Positions 48,518 to 64,000 of a stretch of DNA of 64,000 bases are shown here, piece after piece (within the stretch, counting starts at the first letter, position 1; each line of letters opens with the position of its first letter). This DNA is from Pseudomonadota bacterium. GTDB taxonomy: Bacteria > Pseudomonadota > Alphaproteobacteria > Sphingomonadales > Sphingomonadaceae. The notes beneath the pieces are model-generated. The model had not been told where the DNA came from. It made no database searches and was given only the letters and a program-made list of their open reading frames with translations. Made by a program: the position numbers and the translations under genes. The stretch covers positions 1-64,000 of the forward strand of contig JAKPHK010000061.1 of the NCBI GenBank assembly GCA_029550345.1. The letters are read 5' to 3'.

Positions 48518-50419
48518 TCAGGCCGGATTGTACCAGATCGCCGAAGTATAGGCGCGCTCCTGCTGCTTCAAAGGGATTTCGGCAGGAAGGGTCAGCTTGA
48601 ACTTCACCATGTCGTAATCCATCCAGGTCGGCGTCGGAATCTGCAGCACGCGCACATAATAGAATGCCCGGACTTTCGGATCGAATTCAGGGTCGGTCCA
48701 GACCGTTGCCAGGCTCGGCGCGCCGATCGTGTTCTGATAGGTCGCGGTTGCGACATCAACCGTATCACCCACCGCCGGGACCTTGCCGTTCACGGCCACC
48801 CGCTTGTCCATATCGGACCAGACCACGTCGAACACCTTCTCGTGCGAATTGCCTGCTGCATCGACCCAGCCCTTGACGACCTGGACGCGATCAAGATTGC
48901 CGTCGATCGGGTCCTTGAGAGCCGAAACGATAAAGCTGGGGGCGCCGCTGCCGCCGGCTTTCAGGTCGCCGCCCATCGGCACCCCGCGCGTGTAACCGGC
49001 CTTGACCCAATCACCTTTCAGATCATCGGCCTTGAAATCCCAGCCGCCGAAGAACCGCACGGTCATCCGCGGGCCGGTGGTGCCATAGACTTCGCGGCGC
49101 ATCATCGCATCGAAGATCGCTTCGCGGGTATTGCTGGTTGCCCAGACCCCGGCATAGCCACTGGCAAGCGACTGCCAGTTCATCCGTCCGACCCGCTCAA
49201 CCGGAACACCCGGCACAAAGCTGGCAGTGGCACGCTCTGCACTCGGTTCAACGCCGGGATGCTTGCCGAAATAGTTGTTGTCGTCGGCGGTCGAAAGAGA
49301 GGTGTGCGCGTCTGTCGAGCCGACTACGCCGAACTTGTATGGGTTCACGCCGGTTCGCTGCTCGATCAGCATCCCGCGCTTCAGCGCTTCGCGGACATAG
49401 CTGCCTGCCAGGTCGCCGGGTTTGGTGGGCTGGGTGTTGAGCAGATTGTTCTGATCCCATCCTGCCGTGCCGTAGCCGGCGAACTCGTCGTTGGGGGAAA
49501 GGAACGGGTGCGCTTCGCTGTCACCCTTGATCTGGGTGATCTCCACCACCGGTTCATGCGCCGCGCGGCGGCGGGCATATTCGGCCGAGATCGGGCCACC
49601 CTTCGGATCGGTCAGCATGAACATCAGGCCATTCGAAAGGTTGGAATTGTGCGGTATCGCCAAGACCTTGCCGCCGGTGGTCTTTTCATAGGCATCCATG
49701 TAGTCCCACAGCGCGTCCGGCCAGTCCTGACCCGCATCGCTGAGCGGATCGACCTTGTTCACCCGGTCTATGCCGTCGCGGAAGATGACGTTTCGGTGCA
49801 GATTGTTACCGCCCTGCATCAGGGTATATTCGAAACCGAAAAAGGCGGTGAACTTGCCCGGTTCGTTATAGCTTTCAACGGTCTTGAGGCCCTCGTTCCA
49901 GATCTTGTGCGTGCGCGCCTGAGCCTTCGCGGGATCATTGAGCCCGGGCGGCATCTTGCCATGGGCTCGCGCGTCGAGGATTTCGGCGGTCGCCTGAAGA
50001 GAGCCCTTGGGGCCTTCGTGCATCAGATCATACCAGCGCAGCAAGGTGGGGTCATTGATCGCGATCCGCGGCGCGTCATAAAGCGCCTTGGTCGAGCCGA
50101 GCCCTTCGGAGTGGTCGGTGATCACCAGGAAGTCGAGCGGGCGGGCCAGCTTGGCCTTGACCCCAGCCGAGCTGGTGACCTCTTCGCCGCGGGCAAAGCG
50201 CAGTGCTGCTTCTGGATCGAGCCGATTGCCGAAACCGAAAGCATCGACCGAATTTGCCGTATGCAGGTGCGTGTCGCCCCAGAATACCTGTTCCGGGTAG
50301 GCCGTGTTCTTGACCTCTGCCGTGCTTCCGCCGACCTGTGATAGCTTGTCGCATCCTGAAACCAGCATGGTCGAACTGAGCAACAGGGCAGCTGCGGTGA
50401 TCGTTGTGCGCATAGTCAT
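48518..50419 (-). CDS. DUF3604 lipoprotein, copy A
   Basis: Lipobox MLVSGC; VFWGDTHLHTANSVDAFGFG, LDFLVITDHSEGLGS, GVVGSTDAHTSLS. Confidence 0.88.
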   Translation of the reverse strand: MTMRTTITAAALLLSSTMLVSGCDKLSQVGGSTAEVKNTAYPEQVFWGDTHLHTANSVDAFGFGNRLDPEAALRFARGEEVTSSAGVKAKLARPLDFLVITDHSEGLGSTKALYDAPRIAINDPTLLRWYDLMHEGPKGSLQATAEILDARAHGKMPPGLNDPAKAQARTHKIWNEGLKTVESYNEPGKFTAFFGFEYTLMQGGNNLHRNVIFRDGIDRVNKVDPLSDAGQDWPDALWDYMDAYEKTTGGKVLAIPHNSNLSNGLMFMLTDPKGGPISAEYARRRAAHEPVVEITQIKGDSEAHPFLSPNDEFAGYGTAGWDQNNLLNTQPTKPGDLAGSYVREALKRGMLIEQRTGVNPYKFGVVGSTDAHTSLSTADDNNYFGKHPGVEPSAERATASFVPGVPVERVGRMNWQSLASGYAGVWATSNTREAIFDAMMRREVYGTTGPRMTVRFFGGWDFKADDLKGDWVKAGYTRGVPMGGDLKAGGSGAPSFIVSALKDPIDGNLDRVQVVKGWVDAAGNSHEKVFDVVWSDMDKRVAVNGKVPAVGDTVDVATATYQNTIGAPSLATVWTDPEFDPKVRAFYYVRVLQIPTPTWMDYDMVKFKLTLPAEIPLKQQERAYTSAIWYNPA

Positions 50420-50423
50420 GCTC

Positions 50424-52310
50424 CTAGGCCGGTTCGTACCAGATCGGTGAGGTGTAGCCGCGTTCCTGCTGCTTGAGCGGGATCGCGGGATCGAGCTTGA
50501 GCTTGTAGCGGACCATGTCGAAATTGACCCAGGTCGGGGTCGGGATCTCCAGCACCCGCACGTAATAGAACGCCCGCGCCTTGGGGTCGAATTCGGGGTC
50601 GGACCAGACCGTCGTCAGGCTCGGTGCGCCGATCGTGTTGGTGTAGGTTGCGGTTGCGGTGTCCACGGTATCGCCAACCGACGGAACCTTGCCACCTGCG
50701 GCCACCCGCTTGTCCATGTCTGACCAGACCACATCGAAGACCTTTTCGTGGGCCGTTCCCGCGGCATCGACCCAGCCCTTGACGACCTGAGCCCGGTCAA
50801 GGTTGGCCCCCTGGGGGTCCTTCAGCGCGGAGATCACGAAGCTGGGCGCGCCGCTTCCGGCCTTGAGTATCCCGCCCATCGGCACGCCGCGCGCATAGCC
50901 TTGATCGACCCAATCCCCTTTCAGGTCATCTGCCTTGAAATCCCAGCCGCCAAAGACACGCAGCACCATCCGTGTGCCGGTGGTGGCATAGACTTCGCGG
51001 CGGGCCATCGCGTCAAACAAAGCTTCGCGGGTATTGTCGGTTGCCCAGACTGCGGCATAGCCGCTGGCGAGATAGTTCCAGCCGTACCGGCCCTCGCGCG
51101 TTCCCAGGTTCTGTGCCTCGGCTGCGCGCTTGGGGTTTGGTTCGACGCCGGAATGTTTCCCGAAATAGTTGTCCTCATCGGTCGTGGACAGCGAGGTATG
51201 GCTGTCGGTCGATCCGATCACGCCGAAGCGATAAGGATTCTCCCCGGTGCGTTGTTCGATCATCAATCCGCGTTTCAGTGCCTCGCGGACATAGGACCCG
51301 GTCTGCATTTCCGGGGTGGTGCGTTCGACCATCATCAGATCGCCCAGCTCCCACCCGGCGGTGCCGTAACCGGCGAACTCATCATTGGGCGACATGAACG
51401 GGTGGGCTTCACTGTCTCCCTTGATCTGGGTGATTTCCACCAGTGGTTCGTGCGCCGCCCGGCGCCGGGCGTATGCTGCGCTCATCGGACCGCCGGAGGG
51501 ATCGGTCAGCATAAACATCTTGCCGTTCGAGAGATTCGCATTGTGCGGGATCGCCAGGGTTTTACCGCCGGTCTGCTTCTCATAGGCGTCCATATAATCC
51601 CACAGCCCGTCGGGCTTGGTCGTATCGAACGACATCAGCGGCAGGACGTTCGCGGCGCGGTCGCCGCCATCGCGGAACACCACATTGCGGTGCAGGTTCC
51701 GGCCTTCGTCCATCAGGGTATATTCAAAGCCGATAAACGCGGTGAACTTACCCGGCTCGTTATAGCGCTCGACCGTTGCGATGTGCCGGTTCCAGTCCTT
51801 GCGCAGTCTGTCGGCGGCGGCTTTGGGATTGGTAATTGACGGCGGCAGTTTGTTTTTTGCTTTTGCGTCGATCAGTTCGGCCGTCGCGCGCATCGATCCT
51901 TCCGGGCCGGAATGCAGCATGTCATACCAGCGCAGCAGTAGTGGATCGGAAATCAGCGCGCGGGGCGCCTCATACAGGTTCTTGACCGTCGCAAACCCGT
52001 CCGAGTGATCGCTGATAACCAGAAAATCGAGCGGGCGCTTGAGCTGGGCCTTCTGCCCGGTCGATGAGGTGACCTCCTCACCGCGAGCAAAGCGCAGCGC
52101 GGCTTCCGGATCGAGCCGGGTGCCAAAGCCGAAGGCATCGGGGGAATTGCTGGTGTGAAGATGGGTGTCACCCCAATAGACGCGTTGCGGATGGGCATTT
52201 GCGCTGACCGCTGCGGTTTGGTCCTGCGCCTCCTTGCCGCGATCGCATCCGCCGACAAGCGAAGTCGATCCAAGCAGCAATGCTGCCAAGGCCATGGCTC
52301 TTCCAGTCAT
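50424..52310 (-). CDS. DUF3604 lipoprotein, copy B
   Basis: Lipobox SLVGGC; VYWGDTHLHTSNSPDAFGFG, LDFLVISDHSDGFAT, GVIGSTDSHTSLS. Confidence 0.88.
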   Translation of the reverse strand: MTGRAMALAALLLGSTSLVGGCDRGKEAQDQTAAVSANAHPQRVYWGDTHLHTSNSPDAFGFGTRLDPEAALRFARGEEVTSSTGQKAQLKRPLDFLVISDHSDGFATVKNLYEAPRALISDPLLLRWYDMLHSGPEGSMRATAELIDAKAKNKLPPSITNPKAAADRLRKDWNRHIATVERYNEPGKFTAFIGFEYTLMDEGRNLHRNVVFRDGGDRAANVLPLMSFDTTKPDGLWDYMDAYEKQTGGKTLAIPHNANLSNGKMFMLTDPSGGPMSAAYARRRAAHEPLVEITQIKGDSEAHPFMSPNDEFAGYGTAGWELGDLMMVERTTPEMQTGSYVREALKRGLMIEQRTGENPYRFGVIGSTDSHTSLSTTDEDNYFGKHSGVEPNPKRAAEAQNLGTREGRYGWNYLASGYAAVWATDNTREALFDAMARREVYATTGTRMVLRVFGGWDFKADDLKGDWVDQGYARGVPMGGILKAGSGAPSFVISALKDPQGANLDRAQVVKGWVDAAGTAHEKVFDVVWSDMDKRVAAGGKVPSVGDTVDTATATYTNTIGAPSLTTVWSDPEFDPKARAFYYVRVLEIPTPTWVNFDMVRYKLKLDPAIPLKQQERGYTSPIWYEPA

Positions 52311-52392
52311 ATGGACCCCTCCCGATCCTGTTCTTTCCGGCAGCCTGACAGCTTGAAACGCGTTGTTCAAGGTTCACCGGCACTTGTGCACC

Positions 52393-54293: not shown

Positions 54294-54683
54294 TCAACTG
54301 ACCGCGATCCCGTCGAGGATCGGACAATCGGGTCTGCTGTCGCCGCTGCACCCTTCGGCCAGTTCCAGCAAGGCGCGACGCATGGCTTCAAGTGCTGCGG
54401 CCTTGCGACCAAGATCATCGGCATGTGCCAGGGCAACGGCCTTCACTTCACTGCTCGTCCGCTCGCGGTTGTCCCATAGGCCGAGGAGAGTGGCGATCTC
54501 CTCAAGCGAGAAGCCAAGGCCGCGGGCGTTGGCAATGAAGCGCAGGCGCTCGATCGATTGCGGCGAATAATCCCTGTAACCATTGTCGCGTCGGTCAGTG
54601 GGCGGCATCAACCCTACGCGCTCATAGTGCCGGATCATCCGCTCCGACACGCCAGTGGTCTTCGATGCCTGTCCGATGTTCAT
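54294..54683 (-). CDS. MerR family regulator, CueR/HmrR-like
   Basis: [41 protein letters not shown]-terminal CSGDSRPDCPIL metal-loop cysteines. Confidence 0.88.
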   Translation of the reverse strand: MNIGQASKTTGVSERMIRHYERVGLMPPTDRRDNGYRDYSPQSIERLRFIANARGLGFSLEEIATLLGLWDNRERTSSEVKAVALAHADDLGRKAAALEAMRRALLELAEGCSGDSRPDCPILDGIAVS

Positions 54684-54883
54684 GGCCGCTGTTCGTCGAA
54701 CTTCGGGTAGCGTCCTTGGTGGTGGCCGCCATGGAAGAAGTGCAGCAGCAGGCAGGCGAGCAGGAATGCGTAAGGGATCAGCCCGAAGAAGTGCTGCCGG
54801 TGTTCCGGATAGAGCAGGAAAGCGGCGATCAGCGCGCCCGATGCCGCGGCCAGCAGCCACGCGCGCTTGCTGGCAAGGTTCAT
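54680..54883 (-). CDS. DUF2933-like small membrane protein
   Basis: [23 protein letters not shown]. Confidence 0.7.
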
Positions 54884-57225
54884 AGCGCAATCCTCCTGAG
54901 ACGCAGCGAATTACCGATGACGCTGACCGAGGAAAGCGCCATCGCCGCCGCCGCGATGATCGGTGAAAGCATGATGCCGAACAGCGGGTAGAGCGCGCCC
55001 GCAGCCACCGGGATACCAGCGACGTTGTAGGCAAAGGCAAAGAACAGGTTCTGCCGGATGTTGGTCATGGTTGCGTGGCTGAGGTGCCGGGCACGCGCTA
55101 TCCCCGTCAAATCGCCCTTGAGCAGTGTGATGCCTGCGCTTTCAATCGCAACGTCTGTGCCGGTGCCCATGGCGATGCCGACATCGGCAGCGGCAAGCGC
55201 AGGGGTGTCGTTCACACCGTCGCCTGCCATCGCCACGATCCTGCCTTCGTCCCTCAAGCGCTTGACGATCGCGCTCTTTTGGTCTGGCAACACATCGGCT
55301 TCGATGTCGTCGATGCCGAGCCGCCGCGCGATGGCCTCAGCCGTGACGCGATTGTCCCCGGTCAACATGATGACATGGATACCCGCTCCGGCCAGCGCCT
55401 TGAGCGCGGCAGACGTAGTCTGCTTTACCGGATCGGCAATGCCGATGGCACCCGCAACCTTGCCATCTATGCCAAGAAAAATTGCGGTCGCCCCGTCAGC
55501 GCGCAGGGCGTCAGCACGTTGCGCCAGGGGGGCAGTCGAGACCCCTTGTTCCTGAAGAAAGCGGGCATTTCCAGCAACAAGCCGATGTCCATCGACGATG
55601 CCGGTTATGCCCTTGCCGACTGGCTGATCGACGTCGCCCGGTTCGCTGATTGCGATCCTCTTGGCTTCTGCATCTCTGACAATTGCCAGGGCTAGCGGAT
55701 GCTCGCTGCTGCGTTCGAGGCTCGCGGCAAGGCGCAGAACCTCTTGACTGTCGAACCCTTCGGCCGTCTCGATCGCAACCACCGCAGGCTTGCCTTCGGT
55801 GAGCGTGCCGGTCTTGTCGACGACAAGCGTATCGACCTTCTCCATGCGTTCGAGTGCCTCGGCGTTCTTGATGAGTATACCGGCCTGGGCACCGCGTCCG
55901 ACCCCCACCATGATCGACATCGGGGTCGCGAGGCCAAGCGCACAGGGGCAGGCGATGATCAGCACGGCCACCGCTGCGATCAGGCCATAGCCCATTGCCG
56001 GCGATGGGCCGACCAGGGACCAGACGACGAACGCGATCGCTGAGACCGCGATCACCGCCGGCACGAACCAGCCCGACACGGTGTCGGCAAGCCGCTGGAT
56101 GGGCGCACGACTGCGCTGGGCTTCTGCTACCATCTGGACGATGCGCGCCAGCATGGTGTCGCGCCCGATCTTCTCGGCGCGCATCACAATGCCGCCGGTC
56201 TGGTTTATCGTGCCACCGATCAGCTTCGACGCAGCCTCCTTGGTCACCGGCATGGACTCGCCAGTCACCATCGATTCATCGACCGTGCCGCGGCCCTCCA
56301 GTACCACGCCATCAACCGGAACCTTCTCGCCAGGGCGAACGCGTAGCGTGTCGCCGACCAGAACCTGGTCGAGTGTGATCTCCTCGTCACTACCATCGGG
56401 ACGAACCCGGCGGGCGAGCTTGGGCGAAAGGTCGAGCAATGCGCGGATCGCACCGCTGGTTGTTTCCCGGGCACGCAGTTCAAGCAGTTGGCCAAGCAAG
56501 ACCAGCACGGTAATGACCGCCGCCGCCTCGAAATAGACCGCGACTGAGCCGTCCATTGCGCGAAACGCGGGCGGGAAGATACCGGGCGCGAGCGCCGCCG
56601 CCATGCTGTAGATCCAGGCAACGCCCGTTCCCATCGCAATCAGGGTGAACATGTTGAGGTGGCCGCTCTTCACCGATGCCCAGCCGCGTTCGAAAAATGG
56701 CCAGCCCGCCCACAGGACCACCGGCGTCGCCAGAACCATCTGGATCAGGTTGGCGATGTTTCCATCCAGATAATGGCGCAGTCCGGTCAAATGCCCGCCC
56801 ATTTCGAGCGCAACCACCGGCAAAGCGAGGATGAGGCCGATTACAAAGCGCCGCTTCATGTCGGCATATTCGGGCGACGGTCCATCGTTGAGCGTCGGCG
56901 TCATCGGTTCCAAGGCCATGCCGCAGATCGGGCAGCTTCCCGGCCCCGACTGCTGGACCTCCGGATGCATCGGGCAGGTCCAGGTCGCGCCGTCTGGCAC
57001 CGGCTCTGCCGGTCGCGGCGCATCGCTCATATAACGCGATGGATCGGCCTTGAACTTGGTTAGACAGGCAACGCTGCAAAAGTAGTGATGGACGCCGTCA
57101 TGGGTCGCGACATGCGTGGTCGTCGCAGAATCGACGCTCATTCCGCAGACGGGGTCAATCACCGTCCCTGGAGCCTTCGATCCGGAATGCGCGCATTTCG
57201 CATGATCATGATGCGACTCGGTCAT
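54880..57225 (-). CDS. copper-translocating P1B-type ATPase
   Basis: CPC motif [25 protein letters not shown]-terminal YHS (DPVCGMSVD) and heavy-metal-binding [26 protein letters not shown] domains. Confidence 0.93.
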
Positions 57226-57258
57226 ACTTCGTACTCCTCTGGTCGCAACACTCATCAA

Positions 57259-57283
57259 CCTTGACATTATGTCAGGGTCAAGG
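57259..57283 (-). promoter_or_regulatory. MerR/CueR-type operator-promoter of the copper ATPase operon
   Basis: CCTTGAC-N11-GTCAAGG containing TGACA-tta-TGTCA; minus strand has a TTGACC -35-like element with a long spacer. Confidence 0.55.
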
Positions 57284-57289
57284 GGTAAT

Positions 57290-58216
57290 TCAACCGTTCG
57301 CCATGATCGGCTCCAGCGTACCCAGCCAGGCCACCACGGCGAGGATCGTAAGCACTGTGGACGTTTCCAGAACCAGGCTTTGCCGAAGACCACGTAACGC
57401 GGGGACCGGAGTGCCGTTGGCTGCACCAAGAGCGGGTGTCAGGCGCCAGCGGTTGACACCCGCCAGCATCAGCATTGCAGCAAACAGGGCGAGCTTGATA
57501 AGCAGGAGTTGGCCGTAGCGCGAAGCGAACAAGGCGTATGGATGCGGCAAGCCCATTAGGCTCAGGCTGTTGATGATGCCCGTGAGAACGATCAACGCGA
57601 CCGCAAGCGTCCCAACCCGCGAGAATTGTTCAAGCGCCCGATGCGCGATCCTGATCTGCGCATCGGATTGGTGCGCCAATGGCTGAAAAAGCAGCCAAGA
57701 GAACGCGGCAATTCCGCCGATCCATATAGCCGCCGCCAGCATGTGGACGATGTCGCTCAGCCGGTGGAGCGATCCAGTCCACCCTTCGGTTGCACCGGCA
57801 TGGCCAGTCCAGACCAGCGTGGCGATGGCAAGCACAGCCGAGGCAAGCAGACAGTATCTTGTAAGGCGTGGGCTTCGGCCAAGCGCCAGCGCGGCAAGCA
57901 GGGCAATTGCGACTGCCACCATGCGCACGACCCAGGCGCTGCCGATGGCGCTCTGTGTAACGATTTCCCTGAAGGCCGAGCCATCGACTTCCCAGAGGCT
58001 TGTCCCGGTCATGGCTGCGACAAGTGCGATCATGCCGGAGCCGGACAGCAGCAGTCCGAGCAGCGAAAGGAGGAGGGCAGGTTTGGCCAGCGGCAGCAAG
58101 GCAGTGCCTCGCTCCTCGGGTTTCAGCGCGTAAAGCGAGAAGGCTGTCACACCTGCCAGCACCATCAGGTCGACGTAAAGCGCGAACCGGATGGCGATGA
58201 CAGGCAGGTTGTCCAT
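57290..58216 (-). CDS. copD: copper resistance protein D family membrane protein
   Basis: Multi-[42 protein letters not shown]. Confidence 0.85.
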
Positions 58217-58220
58217 GTCT

Positions 58221-58604
58221 TCAGCGTACGGTGAAGCTGAAGTTGCCGCCCATGCGATGCGTGTCGGCTCCGGCCGCGCTCCAGGTCACGCGGTAAGTCC
58301 CGCTGGCAAGCGGCCGACGGAGCAGCAAAGTCATCGATTTCCTGTCATTGCCAAGCCGGGCGGTGAAACCCGTGATCGGCATCGGCGCATGGTTTGCCAT
58401 ACCCGGCATTCCGGTCATTGCGATCTCGGCCCTTGCCGTTGCGCCGATCACGGCCTCATTGAAGCGCAGTTCGACCTTTGTCGGCGCTGCGACCGTGGCA
58501 TTGGCTGTCGGGGTCGAAGACACGAGCTGCGTATGCGCGCTGGCTACCTGCGGCACGATGAGCCCCAAAGTCGCAACGGCAAAGGCAAGGCTGGGCAAAC
58601 GCAT
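58221..58604 (-). CDS. copC: copper resistance protein C
   Basis: Signal peptide cleaving before AHTQLVSSTPTANATV; FNEAV; SGTYRVTWSAAGADTHRMGGNFSFTV. Confidence 0.92.
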   Translation of the reverse strand: MRLPSLAFAVATLGLIVPQVASAHTQLVSSTPTANATVAAPTKVELRFNEAVIGATARAEIAMTGMPGMANHAPMPITGFTARLGNDRKSMTLLLRRPLASGTYRVTWSAAGADTHRMGGNFSFTVR

Positions 58605-58637: not shown

Positions 58638-58665
58638 GATACGCGGCCAGGAACAGCATCCCTCA
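58638..58665 (-). promoter_or_regulatory. ECF-sigma promoter candidate for copC/copD
   Basis: Minus strand TGAGGG-atgctgttcctggccg-CGTATC (16-nt spacer). Confidence 0.65.
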
Positions 58666-58687
58666 GATTGGGCGGGCTCAGTTTTCC

Positions 58688-58715
58688 TGAGGGATTGGGA
58701 ATATGGCCGCGTATA
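58688..58715 (+). promoter_or_regulatory. ECF-sigma promoter candidate for the anti-sigma/sensor/sigma operon
   Basis: TGAGGG-attgggaatatggccg-CGTATA (16-nt spacer). Confidence 0.65.
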
Positions 58716-58742
58716 GGATCACAAGACCTCGGGAGACCCACC

Positions 58743-59021
58743 ATGTCCGACCTTGATCAGGCGCTCCGCCGCCTGGGCACACTTCCGGCTCCTTCGGGGC
58801 TGGCGACTATCGACGATGCTGTGCTTGCCGGACTGGCTGCGAGCTGCCGTGAGGATGCGGCCGGGTCGCGGCTGATGGGTTTTGCTGCAGCCTTGGCGCT
58901 TGTGGTCGGCGTGGCCGGTGGTGGACTGGCGGGCGGCGAACCGGCCACGGCTCAGCCAATCTCACCCTTTGCTCCCGACAATCCCCTCGCACCTTCGACC
59001 TTGCTGGATGTCCACCCGTGA
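58743..59021 (+). CDS. putative CnrY-like anti-sigma factor
   Basis: Short cytoplasmic N-term, single TM (LMGFAAALALVVGVAGGGLAGG); first gene of a 4-bp-overlapping trio ending in an ECF sigma. Confidence 0.55.
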   Translation: MSDLDQALRRLGTLPAPSGLATIDDAVLAGLAASCREDAAGSRLMGFAAALALVVGVAGGGLAGGEPATAQPISPFAPDNPLAPSTLLDVHP

Positions 59022-59458
59022 ATTGGACCACGCGGCTGATCCTGATCGCGCTTGTCGCATTTGCGGCGGCGCTGGGCGGCACTTATGCCGGCCGCGTCCT
59101 GTTTGCACCGGAAAGGCAGAGCGAGACCGAACTCCACGCCTTGCTGCACAGCGAGCTCGAACTAGATGCCGCACAGGAAGCAAAGATCGAGGCAATCGAG
59201 CAGCGTTTTGCCACACGACGCAAGGCGCTCGAACTCGAGATGCGGGCCGCCAATGCCCATCTGGCCGACGCGATGGAAGTGGAACACGGCTATGGTCCGC
59301 AAGTCACGGCCGCCATCGACCACACCCACAAGGTCATGGGTGAAATGCAGAAGGAAACGCTTGAGCATCTCTTTGCCATGCGCGCCGTCCTGAGGGCTGA
59401 TCAGGCGGCCAAATTCGACAGGTCGGTTACCAGAGCCCTTACCCCAGAAGTGCGGTGA
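59018..59458 (+). CDS. periplasmic heavy-metal sensor, CnrX/ZraP-like
   Basis: N-term anchor, helical LHALLHSELELDAAQEAKIEAIEQRFATRRKALELEMRAANAHLADAM. Confidence 0.75.
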   Translation: MNWTTRLILIALVAFAAALGGTYAGRVLFAPERQSETELHALLHSELELDAAQEAKIEAIEQRFATRRKALELEMRAANAHLADAMEVEHGYGPQVTAAIDHTHKVMGEMQKETLEHLFAMRAVLRADQAAKFDRSVTRALTPEVR

Positions 59459-60024
59459 GCCTTCCGCTGTCCGAGGGGAGCGACGGCGAGCTCGCGGCAC
59501 TGGCGCTCGCGGGCCGGCAGGACGCTTATCGCGAATTGCTGGCGCGCCACCGTGACGCTGTGTTTCGCTTGGTGCGAGCGTCAGTCGGCGATCCGCACGA
59601 GGCCCTCGACGTCACCCAGGAAACCTTCATTGCCGCATTCTCGGCCCTTGGGCGTTACGACCATGGGCGACCGTTTTTGGCATGGCTCAAGCACATCGCG
59701 CTCAACAAGTGCAGGGACTGGGGACGAAGGCGCAAGGTGCGCTCCTTCTTCACGCGCGCAGTGCCGCTCGAGATGGCTTTCGATGTTTCAGACGATGCCA
59801 TTCCCGCCGATTTGCAAGCGGCGGACCGGGCCGAGCTGGCGCGCGTGACCGCTGCCATATCCCGCTTGCCATCCCGTCTGCGCGAGGTCCTGGTCCTCCG
59901 CACGATCGATGGCCTCGGCCAGGCCGAAGCTGCCGACGTGCTCGGTGTCAGCGAGAAGACGGTCGAGACCCGCCTCTACCGGGCCAGGGGGAAATTAAAG
60001 GCGATGCTTGACGACCAGATCTGA
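59455..60024 (+). CDS. ECF RNA polymerase sigma factor
   Basis: Sigma70 r2 DVTQETFIAAFSALGRYDHGRPFLAWLKHIALNKCRDWGRR and r4 LPSRLREVLVLRTIDGLGQAEAADVLGVSEKTVETRLYRARGKLK. Confidence 0.92.
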   Translation: MSLPLSEGSDGELAALALAGRQDAYRELLARHRDAVFRLVRASVGDPHEALDVTQETFIAAFSALGRYDHGRPFLAWLKHIALNKCRDWGRRRKVRSFFTRAVPLEMAFDVSDDAIPADLQAADRAELARVTAAISRLPSRLREVLVLRTIDGLGQAEAADVLGVSEKTVETRLYRARGKLKAMLDDQI

Positions 60025-60049
60025 GGGCTAGGGAAAGCGGCTGCGTAGA
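60022..60049 (+). promoter_or_regulatory. ECF-sigma promoter candidate for copA/copB
   Basis: TGAGGG-ctagggaaagcggctg-CGTAGA (16-nt spacer); overlaps the sigma stop codon. Confidence 0.65.
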
Positions 60050-60085: not shown

Positions 60086-61840
60086 ATGCATTCTTTTGCG
60101 CTCGATCGCCGTACCCTCATTCGTTCGGCTGCTTTGGGGGGCGGGGGCCTCGCGCTTTCGGCAGCGCTCCCCGCGTGGGCGCGCAGTGGAACTCCTGGCC
60201 TCGCAGGCCCGATGTCCGTGGTTTCCGGGGAGCAAATCGCACTATCCATCGGTCATGCCTCGCTCCGGGTCGGCGGACGTGAGGGGCATGCCATCGGCAT
60301 CAACGGTGCGACACCTGGCCCGGTCATCCGGTTAAAGGAGGGCCAGAACGTTCGCTTCGCGGTGAACAACACGCTGAACGAGGAAACCTCGATTCATTGG
60401 CATGGGCTGCTCGTGCCCTTCCAGATGGACGGCGTGCCGGGGGTGAGCTTTCCGGGGATCAAGGTCGGCCAGACCTTCTTGTACGAGTTCCCCGTCAAGC
60501 AGTCTGGCACCTATTGGTATCACAGCCACTCCGGCATGCAGGAAGCGATGGGAACGTATGGCGCGATCATCATCGATCCCGCCGCGCCCGATCCGGTCGC
60601 CTATGACCGTGAACATGTAATCATGCTCGCCGACTGGAGCTTCATGCATCCGCATACCCAACTGCGCAAGTTGAAGGCGCAGCCTGGCTACTTCAACATG
60701 CAGAAGCAGACCCTCTCCGGCCTGCTCGCGGGCAAGGACCAGTCGGCCTCCGAACGCCGCATGTGGGCCGGGATGCGGATGGACCCGACCGACATTTCGG
60801 ACGTCACCGGCGCAACCTATCATTTCATGGTCAACGGTCATGACAGTACCGCGAACTGGACTGGACTGTTCGCACCCGGAGAGCGTGTGCGCCTGCGCAT
60901 CATCAATGCTGCCGCCATGACCAACTTCAATGTCCGGATTCCGGGCCTTGCGATGACCGTGGTTGCCGCCGACGGGCAGAACGTGCAGCCAGTCGAGACC
61001 GACGAGTTCCAGATCGGCATCGCCGAGACCTATGACGTGATTGTCGTGCCCAGAGCCGACGAGGCCTATGGCTTCATCGCCGAAGCCATCGACCGCTCCG
61101 GTCAGGTGCGCGCCACGCTCGCCCCGCGCCTCGGCATGGTCGCGCCGATCCCGGCGATCCGCGAACGCCCGCTGCTGTCCATGCAAGACATGGGCATGGG
61201 CGATATGGCGGCACCCGGTGCCGATGCGAGTGCAACTGATCACGCAGCCATGGGCCACGCCATGCCCGGGATGGATCACGGCTCGATGAAGATGCGCGAT
61301 CCCGCGGTCGCGCCGCAGGTCAAAATGGGACCAGGCGTTGCGACGCTTTCGCCAATGCCCATGGACCGCACGGGCGAACGTCCGACCGGCCTTGAGAAGG
61401 TCGATCACCGGGTGCTGACTTATCGTGACCTCAAAGCGCTCGCGCCCAATCCAGACAAGCGCACGCCGTCGCGCGAGATCGATCTGCACCTGACCGCCAA
61501 CATGGAGCGCTACATGTGGTCCTTCGACGGCGAGAAGTTCAGCGAAAATACTGAGCCAATCCCGTTCCGCCACATGGAGCGGGTGCGCATCAATCTCATT
61601 AACGACACCATGATGCCCCATCCGATTCACTTGCACGGACACTTCTTCGAACTGGTTACGGGCAGTCCCGGCCATCATCCGCTGAAACACACGGTCAACG
61701 TCCTGCCCGGCGGCAGGGTCTCGTTCGATCTGACTGCCGATGAGCTCGGCGACTGGGCATTCCACTGTCACATGCTGCTGCATATGATGTCGGGGATGTT
61801 CCGTGTCGTGACCGTGCGCCATGAGGAGGACGCGGCATGA
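60086..61840 (+). CDS. copA: copper resistance multicopper oxidase, Tat-exported
   Basis: Tat motif DRRTLIRSAALGG; SIHWHGLLVPFQMDGVPG, TYWYHSHSGMQEAMGTYG, HPIHLHGHFFELV, WAFHCHMLLHMMSGM. Confidence 0.95.
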   Translation: MHSFALDRRTLIRSAALGGGGLALSAALPAWARSGTPGLAGPMSVVSGEQIALSIGHASLRVGGREGHAIGINGATPGPVIRLKEGQNVRFAVNNTLNEETSIHWHGLLVPFQMDGVPGVSFPGIKVGQTFLYEFPVKQSGTYWYHSHSGMQEAMGTYGAIIIDPAAPDPVAYDREHVIMLADWSFMHPHTQLRKLKAQPGYFNMQKQTLSGLLAGKDQSASERRMWAGMRMDPTDISDVTGATYHFMVNGHDSTANWTGLFAPGERVRLRIINAAAMTNFNVRIPGLAMTVVAADGQNVQPVETDEFQIGIAETYDVIVVPRADEAYGFIAEAIDRSGQVRATLAPRLGMVAPIPAIRERPLLSMQDMGMGDMAAPGADASATDHAAMGHAMPGMDHGSMKMRDPAVAPQVKMGPGVATLSPMPMDRTGERPTGLEKVDHRVLTYRDLKALAPNPDKRTPSREIDLHLTANMERYMWSFDGEKFSENTEPIPFRHMERVRINLINDTMMPHPIHLHGHFFELVTGSPGHHPLKHTVNVLPGGRVSFDLTADELGDWAFHCHMLLHMMSGMFRVVTVRHEEDAA

Positions 61841-62892
61841 AGACGACCCTTCTCATCAGTGCTGCGGTCCTGCTGGCAGCGCCTGGCATCGCGGCGGCCC
61901 AGTCCTCCATGTCAGACGTGGCAATGAAGGATGCGCCGGCGCCAATTCCCCAAGGCGCAGCCACGCAGCCTGCTGCAGATCATTCCGGCCATGGTCAGCC
62001 AAAGTCCGCAGTTTCCGCGCCCGCCGCGGCCGATCCCCATGCCGGACACGCTGCCGACCCAAAGACGGCCAGTGCGCCAGAGGTCGAAGCCGTGGATCAT
62101 TCCGGCCACGACATGAATGCTATGGCGGGCATGTCTGAGGACGGTCCGGTGATCGGGACTTCGCCCGCCCCGGCGCCGCCAAGTGATCATGCCGCCGATG
62201 CTGTGTTCGATCCTGCCGAAATGGCGCGGGCGAGAGAGGCGCTGCGGCGAGAGAACGGGGCGTTCTACGGATCGATGGTGCTCTTCGACCTTGCCGAATT
62301 CCAGGCCCGAAAGGGCAGGGACGGCTATCGCTGGGCAGGCGAAGCATGGTTTGGCGGCGACATCGATCGCCTCCTGATCAAGACGGAAGGCGAGGGCACT
62401 TTCGGCGAACCAGTCGAGGACCTGGAGATTCAGGCGCTCTATTCGCGCGCGATCTCGCCATTCTGGAACGCCCATGTCGGCGTTCGGCACGATATAGTCC
62501 CCAATCCCTCGCGAACCTATGCCGTACTCGGGATAGAGGGGATCGCACCCTACTGGTTCCACCTGACCGGACAGATGTTTTTTTCGGACAAGGGTGATCT
62601 GCGGGCTCGCCTTGAGGGAAGTTACGATGAGCGCATTACCCAGCGCCTGATCCTCCAGCCTCGGGCGGAGTTCAACATCTCCGCTCAGGACATGCCGGCG
62701 ATCGGGGTAGGATCAGGTCTCACGGACTTCGAACTGGGCGCGCGCCTGCGCTACGAGATACGGCGGGAATTCGCGCCCTACGTTGGCGTGGAATGGAGCA
62801 AAAAGACTGGCGAGACTGCGCGATTGGCGCGGCTTGCCGGGGAAGATCCCGAAGCAGTCAGTTTCGTGGCCGGGCTCAGGGTTTGGTTCTGA
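61837..62892 (+). CDS. copB: copper resistance protein B
   Basis: His/Met-rich N-term; C-terminal barrel EAWFGGDIDRLLIKTEGEGTFG, SPFWNAHVGVRHDIVP. Confidence 0.93.
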   Translation: MKTTLLISAAVLLAAPGIAAAQSSMSDVAMKDAPAPIPQGAATQPAADHSGHGQPKSAVSAPAAADPHAGHAADPKTASAPEVEAVDHSGHDMNAMAGMSEDGPVIGTSPAPAPPSDHAADAVFDPAEMARAREALRRENGAFYGSMVLFDLAEFQARKGRDGYRWAGEAWFGGDIDRLLIKTEGEGTFGEPVEDLEIQALYSRAISPFWNAHVGVRHDIVPNPSRTYAVLGIEGIAPYWFHLTGQMFFSDKGDLRARLEGSYDERITQRLILQPRAEFNISAQDMPAIGVGSGLTDFELGARLRYEIRREFAPYVGVEWSKKTGETARLARLAGEDPEAVSFVAGLRVWF

Positions 62893-62952: not shown

Positions 62953-63309
62953 ATGAACTCGGCCGTCGCTCTCATTGTTGCGCTTGCATCGGTGTTCGGC
63001 TCAGGCCCGCTTTGTGCCGCGACGGCACAGGCTACGGTTCAGACGGTTAGCATGGAATGCGGCGACATGCCGGGAAGCGGCAACCGCTCACATCGTCATG
63101 ACACACCAGACGTGGCGCGGGCCTGCCATTCGTGCATCTTTCCGGCACCCGCTATCGGCACCAATCTGAATGCCACTGGATGGCATTGGATCAGTCCTGA
63201 GGTCCGGGCTCCGCAAAGCCTGTCCGGGTTGACGCTTGAACCGCCGACACCGCCCCCGCGCCAAGTGCTTCCTCGATCCATTTCAAACTTATCTGGAGAA
63301 TACACATGA
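62953..63309 (+). CDS. hypothetical exported protein (Cys/His-containing)
   Basis: Signal peptide; MECGDMPGSGNRSHRHD, ACHSCIFPAP; 4-bp overlap with next ORF. Confidence 0.6.
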   Translation: MNSAVALIVALASVFGSGPLCAATAQATVQTVSMECGDMPGSGNRSHRHDTPDVARACHSCIFPAPAIGTNLNATGWHWISPEVRAPQSLSGLTLEPPTPPPRQVLPRSISNLSGEYT

Positions 63310-63506
63310 AATCCAAGTATCTGCTGGGCGCCCTCGCGGTCTCGCTTTCTACCGCCGTGTTTGCAGCAGAGCCTGCACCGACGCCAGAAAAGCCGTGCTG
63401 TTGCTGTAAGAAGGACGAGCACGGCCAGATGGCCTGCTGCAAGGAACATGGCGAGCAGGCTGGTGAGCATGCTGGTCACGACATGAGCGGCATGGACCAC
63501 AAGTAA
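63306..63506 (+). CDS. small exported Cys/His-rich protein, putative copper-binding
   Basis: Signal peptide then EKPCCCCKKDEHGQMACCKEHGEQAGEHAGHDMSGMDHK. Confidence 0.7.
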   Translation: MKSKYLLGALAVSLSTAVFAAEPAPTPEKPCCCCKKDEHGQMACCKEHGEQAGEHAGHDMSGMDHK

Positions 63507-63514
63507 GTCAAGGT

Positions 63515-63544
63515 GCGCGGAGGGTGGTTGGCCACCCTCCGCGC
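63515..63544 (+). terminator. hairpin terminator
   Basis: gcgcggagggtgg-ttgg-ccaccctccgcgc, 13-bp perfect stem right after the small Cys-rich ORF. Confidence 0.65.
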
Positions 63545-63632
63545 GTTGCCATGTGACTACCGGCAAATGCGGACTGGACCTTAGTTTACACCGGGGCGGT
63601 TAGGCGGCCACCCGCGGATAAGGAGATCACAC

Positions 63633-64000
63633 ATGCGAAAGCTCGTTTTGGCACTGGCGTTGTTTTCGACGCCCGCGCTAGCGGCAGGCGACATCCTGAT
63701 GCATCGCGATCCGGGGTGTGGGTGCTGCGAACAATGGGCTGCGCGGGTTCGGCAGGCCTTCGGCAGAAATGTGCGAATCGTCGATGACGCGAACCGTACC
63801 GCGTTCCAACGGCAGGTGGGTCTTCCCGCAAACCTGGTGTCATGCCACACCGCGATCGTGAACGGGATCGCCTTCGAGGGACACGTTCCTATTGCGGACA
63901 TGAACCGCGTACTGGCGAGCCGCCCGAAAGGTGTTCGTGGGCTTGCAGTTGCGGGAATGCCCATCGGATCGCCGGGCATGGAGGTGCCGGGTGTTCGCGC
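63633..64000 (+). CDS. DUF411 family protein, 3' truncated by window edge
   Basis: MRKLVLALALFSTPALAAGDILMHRDPGCGCCEQWAARV...VSCHTAIVNGIAFEGHVP; frame open to window end. Confidence 0.85.
   Translation, partial: MRKLVLALALFSTPALAAGDILMHRDPGCGCCEQWAARVRQAFGRNVRIVDDANRTAFQRQVGLPANLVSCHTAIVNGIAFEGHVPIADMNRVLASRPKGVRGLAVAGMPIGSPGMEVPGVR

Follow-up and report, generated by a model that had tools for sequence, protein, structure and literature searches.

In Gram-negative bacteria, the control of copper resistance is generally attributed to CopRS/CusRS or to CueR. These regulators act on the effector genes considered here (copABCD and a copper ATPase), as a two-component system or a MerR regulator and without a sigma factor. 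The closest described relative of the present locus is CnrYXH of Cupriavidus metallidurans pMOL28, a nickel/cobalt system in which overlapping genes encode anti-sigma, sensor and sigma in that order, and promoters of the same kind precede the regulator operon and the first effector gene. Its effectors are the CnrCBA RND pump and CnrT. Mapping has placed the CnrH-dependent transcription starts 24 and 25 nt ahead of cnrY and cnrC (PMC9045368). In the nickel-cobalt-cadmium system NccYXH, whose sensor NccX has a solved structure (4clv), the effectors are also of the RND type. Two ECF systems concerned with copper are known as well. CorE of Myxococcus xanthus is an ECF sigma over copper genes including a multicopper oxidase; copper is sensed by a cysteine-rich tail at the C-terminus of the sigma itself, and no anti-sigma is required (PMC10141476). 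SigAb-AabA-AabB of Acinetobacter is copper-responsive and has a two-protein anti-sigma, with AabA-SigAb modelled like CnrY-CnrH, but its motif is GTCAAC...CGTT, its sigma gene comes first, and its direct regulon is relA and a small RNA, with no cop genes directly (PMC12153292).

The locus described here lies in a stretch of 64,000 nucleotides, the window, and shares with CnrYXH the gene order, the overlaps, the placing of the promoters and homologous sigma and sensor proteins. It differs from CnrYXH in its effectors, which are copC-copD and copA-copB, in an additional divergent promoter, in a promoter spacer of 16 instead of 17 bp, and in the sensor sequence HxxMG where CnrX has ERAAG; the sigmas fall in separate tree groups. 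NccYXH, whose sensor is homologous, differs in effectors and metals. The coordinates of the features are collected in Table 1. It is highly probable that the three sites P1 to P3 are promoters of the adjacent CnrYXH-type sigma, which would be released by metal and would drive its own operon, copC-copD and copA-copB, with periplasmic copper as the probable inducer.

Table 1. Features of the copper locus and its surroundings (window coordinates).
Feature	Position	Strand	Basis or remark
CueR/HmrR-type MerR regulator	54294..54683	-	sequence reading; behind ATPase gene
Copper P-type ATPase	54880..57225	-	probably CueR-controlled; ~64 bp downstream of copD
CueR-type promoter/operator TTGACCCTGACATAATGTCAAGGT	57258..57281	-	read from sequence, between copD and ATPase gene
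copD, copper membrane protein	57290..58216	-	NCBIfam copper_CopD above cut-off
copC, periplasmic copper-binding protein	58221..58604	-	NCBIfam copper_CopC above cut-off
P1 ECF promoter	58638..58665	-	TGAGGG-N16-CGTATC; predicted driver of copC-copD; same element kept before copC in relatives
P2 ECF promoter	58688..58715	+	TGAGGG-N16-CGTATA; predicted driver of anti-sigma/sensor/sigma operon (autoregulation); counterpart cnrYp on pMOL28
CnrY-like anti-sigma gene	58743..59021	+	92 aa; apparently one membrane span; conserved C-terminal PSTLL
CnrX-like periplasmic metal sensor	59018..59458	+	146 aa; five CnrX ligands + HxxMG; Pfam Metal_resist
Sensor H104-x-x-M107 codons (HxxMG signature of copper-linked sensors)	59327..59338	+	sensor alignment
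CnrH-like ECF sigma	59455..60024	+	189 aa; PDB CnrH 4cxf match; Pfam Sigma70_r2/r4_2
P3 ECF promoter	60022..60049	+	TGAGGG-N16-CGTAGA; predicted driver of copA-copB; counterpart cnrCp on pMOL28
copA (pcoA-type), multicopper oxidase	60086..61840	+	TIGR01480 above cut-off
copB, outer-membrane copper resistance protein	61837..62892	+	Pfam CopB 8.6e-86

Three overlapping genes downstream of P2 encode a putative anti-sigma, the sensor and the sigma. The sigma consists of regions 2 and 4 only (Pfam Sigma70_r2, 5.4e-16; Sigma70_r4_2, 3.5e-17) and its best PDB match was CnrH (4cxf_A, E=2.1e-36), with the runner-up at 1.1e-20. The sequence-only reading, which had placed an ECF sigma gene between the promoter sites, was thus right about the gene; it had left the type unnamed, which can now be given as CnrYXH-type with a CnrX-like sensor and probably copper as inducer. 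A CorE-type identity was ruled out, as the sigma has no cysteine-rich C-terminal tail (it ends ...KLKAMLDDQI) and its gene is preceded by a CnrY/X-like pair.

The best PDB matches of the sensor were CnrX (3zg1, E=7.7e-19) and NccX (4clv, 1.7e-16). The five CnrX ligands H42, H46, E63, H119 and M123 are all present, as H40, H44, E61, H117 and M121. Among 36 aligned sensors the two histidines of HxxxH, the glutamate and the later histidine were invariant, and the methionine was nearly so. In CnrX, M123 is required for Ni/Co signalling. The sensor of Novosphingobium sp. AP12 (locus L050) has V in place of this ligand, and the copC promoter of that locus has a 17-bp spacer.

The anti-sigma by itself matched no Pfam or NCBIfam family and no PDB entry. 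When the profile of its copper-linked relatives was compared with a CnrY-type profile by hhalign, the two were collinear end to end (74% probability, E 2.7e-5). The profile of copper-linked anti-sigmas only did not find CnrY in the PDB; a mixed profile matched PDB CnrY strongly, partly by construction, CnrY being in the profile. Position, size and profile match together suggest that the 92-aa protein is kin to CnrY.

The CnrY-like protein (58743-59021) would keep the sigma at the membrane as long as the cells are at rest. Binding of metal by the periplasmic CnrX-like sensor (59018-59458) would loosen the anti-sigma/sigma complex, and the freed sigma would take RNA polymerase to the promoters of its own operon, of copC-copD and of copA-copB. 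Copper in the periplasm is the probable physiological inducer, because the target genes are copper genes and HxxMG is confined to copper-linked sensors. A sensor with intact Ni/Co ligands may respond to nickel or cobalt besides, or instead of, copper. The C-terminus of the anti-sigma, APSTLL (window 58743-59018), is its best-conserved part across relatives, with P..LL retained even in CnrY, and is possibly the contact with the sensor.

The metal specificity was addressed by comparing 70 loci in which the sensor and sigma genes are neighbours, six of which stand beside a CnrCBA-type pump (L102, L107, L141, L175, L179, L205). Most of the 64 non-RND loci adjoin cop genes; at L070, L101, L104, L105 and L188 no cop genes were detected at the thresholds used. 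HxxMG occurred in the sensors of 63 of these 64 loci (the exception being L178) and in none of the six RND-linked ones. The six RND-linked sigmas formed one tree group (support 100/99); only this Cnr-type grouping of the sigma tree was used, the outgroup sigma (L210) having probably been read in the wrong frame. A class-wide search for RND-linked sigmas at a strict limit returned none, the limit being too strict or the gene too rare.

A rival explanation is that a nickel/cobalt-responsive Cnr-type system merely drives copper genes, with a sensor that answers mainly Ni/Co and copper not being the true signal. The conservation of all five Ni/Co ligands agrees with it, as does the induction of copA, copB and copC by 10 mM nickel in Sphingobium sp. 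ba1, which its authors called unreported (PMC5557971); a CnrX-type sensor before such genes is a possible reason for that induction. The plasmids of S. yanoikuyae have the standard layout and not the operon of Sphingobium sp. ba1. Against a mainly nickel-sensing system stand the separate grouping of copper-linked and RND-linked sigmas and the absence of HxxMG from the RND-linked sensors. Moreover, both system types are found in one genome in two cases (G039, with L077 and L102; G035, with L085 and L107), where a second nickel sensor would be superfluous. This explanation is therefore considered unlikely.

The promoter spacer also differed with system type. It was 17 bp at 10 of 10 RND-linked sites; at the other loci it was 16 bp at 123 sites and 17 bp at nine (Fisher p=1.4e-10, a descriptive value as the loci share ancestry). 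No promoter site of such kind was recognised at the RND-linked locus L179. The copper-linked loci L092, L097, L170, L172 and L180 have a 17-bp spacer at some promoters, so there are exceptions to the spacer rule. It can tentatively be proposed, at slightly less than even chances, that an old split of CnrYXH gave rise to a copper branch in which HxxMG shifts the response to copper and the 16-bp spacer helps to separate the regulons where both coexist. Both roles, that of HxxMG in determining the copper response and that of the spacer in insulating the regulons, are hypotheses.

The assignment of P1 to P3 to the CnrH-like sigma rests on the sites themselves, their conservation and their likeness to mapped promoters. 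Three TGAGGG-N16-CGTA sites with an equal spacing of 16 nt had been claimed from the sequence, two of them divergent in the copC/anti-sigma intergenic region, and hexamers, coordinates and orientation were found exactly so; as far as CGTA, the sites span 58640-58665 (-), 58688-58713 (+) and 60022-60047 (+). For TGAGGG and CGTA at N14-18 the chance expectation in the window is 0.28, and three sites were reached in 0 of 100 shuffles. At all three sites the start codon follows the end of the -10 box by ~27-36 nt. The genome (3.11 Mb, 94% complete) was searched by pattern, a scan proposed with the sequence-only reading. The N15-17 pattern gave six matches: P1 to P3, two with other spacers and one further N16 site. 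The latter sits within a phage-primase-like ORF and lacks the extra G common to P1 to P3, and was judged to be a chance match in coding sequence. With this G included, TGAGGG-N15-GCGTA had three exact matches in the genome, which are P1, P2 and P3; the refined motif thus predicts three promoters only. With one mismatch allowed there were 18 matches versus 26 for the reversed control, which is background.

Footprinting was carried out on 42 non-redundant loci of relatives (503 kb), with spacers of 10 to 22 scanned and the reversed motif as control. TGAGGG and CGTA were separated by N16 in 88 cases and N17 in six, with at most one case at each other spacer; the reversed control gave at most three per spacer. 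The consensus was TGAGGG(A/G)T-N12-(T/C)GCGTA(T/A), and most spacer positions carried ~0.1-0.3 bits. The boxes are kept and the spacers vary across the homologous islands, and the random degeneration that would have spoken against the motif was not seen. The layout copD-copC, P1, P2, Y-X-H, P3, copA-copB recurs even at sigma identities of 50-65%. In L069, L073, L079 and L092 other genes have come to lie between the sigma gene and copA; the site there accompanies copA, at a distance of about 180-600 bp or more from the stop codon of sigma, and the relocated copC of L049 retains its own copy of the motif. The third site had been placed on the stop codon of the sigma gene. The -35 box of P3 does overlap this TGA (60022-60024), but the arrangement is not conserved: the overlap was exact in 13 of 45 loci only, and in others the site was shifted upstream by 7, 8 or 26 bases or lay further downstream. 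Since the position is so variable, the overlap reflects tight packing and no mechanism.

A strict motif match preceded the Y gene in 48 of 64 loci, the 64 including six RND-linked loci that are uncounted here, and within the range scanned roughly one in four copper-type loci had none. At least one exact site was present in 178 of 301 genomes of the family, some of the single matches being due to chance. The system also occurs outside the order, in another alphaproteobacterial family (f12, possibly Caulobacteraceae). Sensor homologues were found on 79 plasmid records, of which 40 were typed as conjugative.

The strongest evidence for the promoter reading comes from pMOL28, where the upstream regions have CAAGGG-N17-CGTATA at cnrY and CGAGGG-N17-CGTATA at cnrC. 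The mapped cnrY start is compatible with a position ~7 nt past CGTATA. Through the element at the mapped CnrH starts, the motif is linked to a sigma and promoters already known to belong together. The -35/-10 reading is thus strongly supported by dozens of relatives and by mapped homologous promoters, and the same evidence argues strongly for the predicted autoregulation of the sigma and its control of copCD and copAB.

The sites could instead be operators of another copper regulator of the CopR or CueR type, as is usual for copper genes, and three similar sites before copper operons would agree with this. However, the element is asymmetric and two-part, with a fixed spacing of 16-17 bp and a promoter-like distance to the start codon, and it also stands before the sigma's own operon and in the mapped CnrH promoters. 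The nearby CueR-type site looks different, and the inspected part of the island showed no copRS pair. An operator function is therefore very improbable. That P1 to P3 are alike by chance or recent duplication, as the similar final spacer bases of P1 and P2 (GGCCGCGTA) might suggest, is already refuted by footprinting, in which boxes and flanking bases are conserved and most spacer positions are not; the shuffles speak against it as well.

The sigma had been predicted to drive all copper efflux/oxidation genes except the CueR-type ATPase operon. Within the window this fits, as a CueR-type promoter precedes the ATPase gene (TTGACCCTGACATAATGTCAAGGT, which we take to resemble CueR sites), although the ATPase gene could possibly be transcribed also by read-through from copCD. 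Beyond the window the exemption does not hold throughout, as ECF sites of relatives directly precede the orthologous ATPase (L069) and DUF411-type genes (L048, L088). Further extra sites stand upstream of duplicate copA genes (L097) and of the gene for a small protein rich in His and Met (L078). No ECF site precedes the DUF411-type gene that runs from 63634 in the window.

Some loci differ in other ways. In L088 (4236, +) and L207 (7943-8539) the ECF promoter is separated from the anti-sigma gene by a gene for cytochrome c, which may have joined the sigma regulon. In L105, of the distant family f8, the ECF site past sigma (6709, +) is followed after ~340 bp by a large gene of porin-like type and not by copA. 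In the window, copB is followed (62953-64000) by a 118-aa ORF, a small Cys/His-rich secreted protein (63306-63506) and, from 63634, the DUF411-type secreted protein; a strong GC-rich hairpin (~63517-63546) separates the latter two genes. On the minus strand at 48518-52370, two long lipoprotein genes side by side (633 and 648 aa) are paralogues and apparently arose by tandem duplication.

In the open-access literature no description of this system was found; subscription papers may exist. The promoter motif can be used for predicting copper regulons, and the two branches lend themselves to comparing how the metal preference of a periplasmic sensor could shift with ligands unchanged, the L050 sensor with its 17-bp copC spacer being a natural variant of interest. 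Across Sphingomonadales and some other Alphaproteobacteria, and on many plasmids, a sigma switch of the nickel/cobalt type stands at the classical copABCD genes and very probably controls them.
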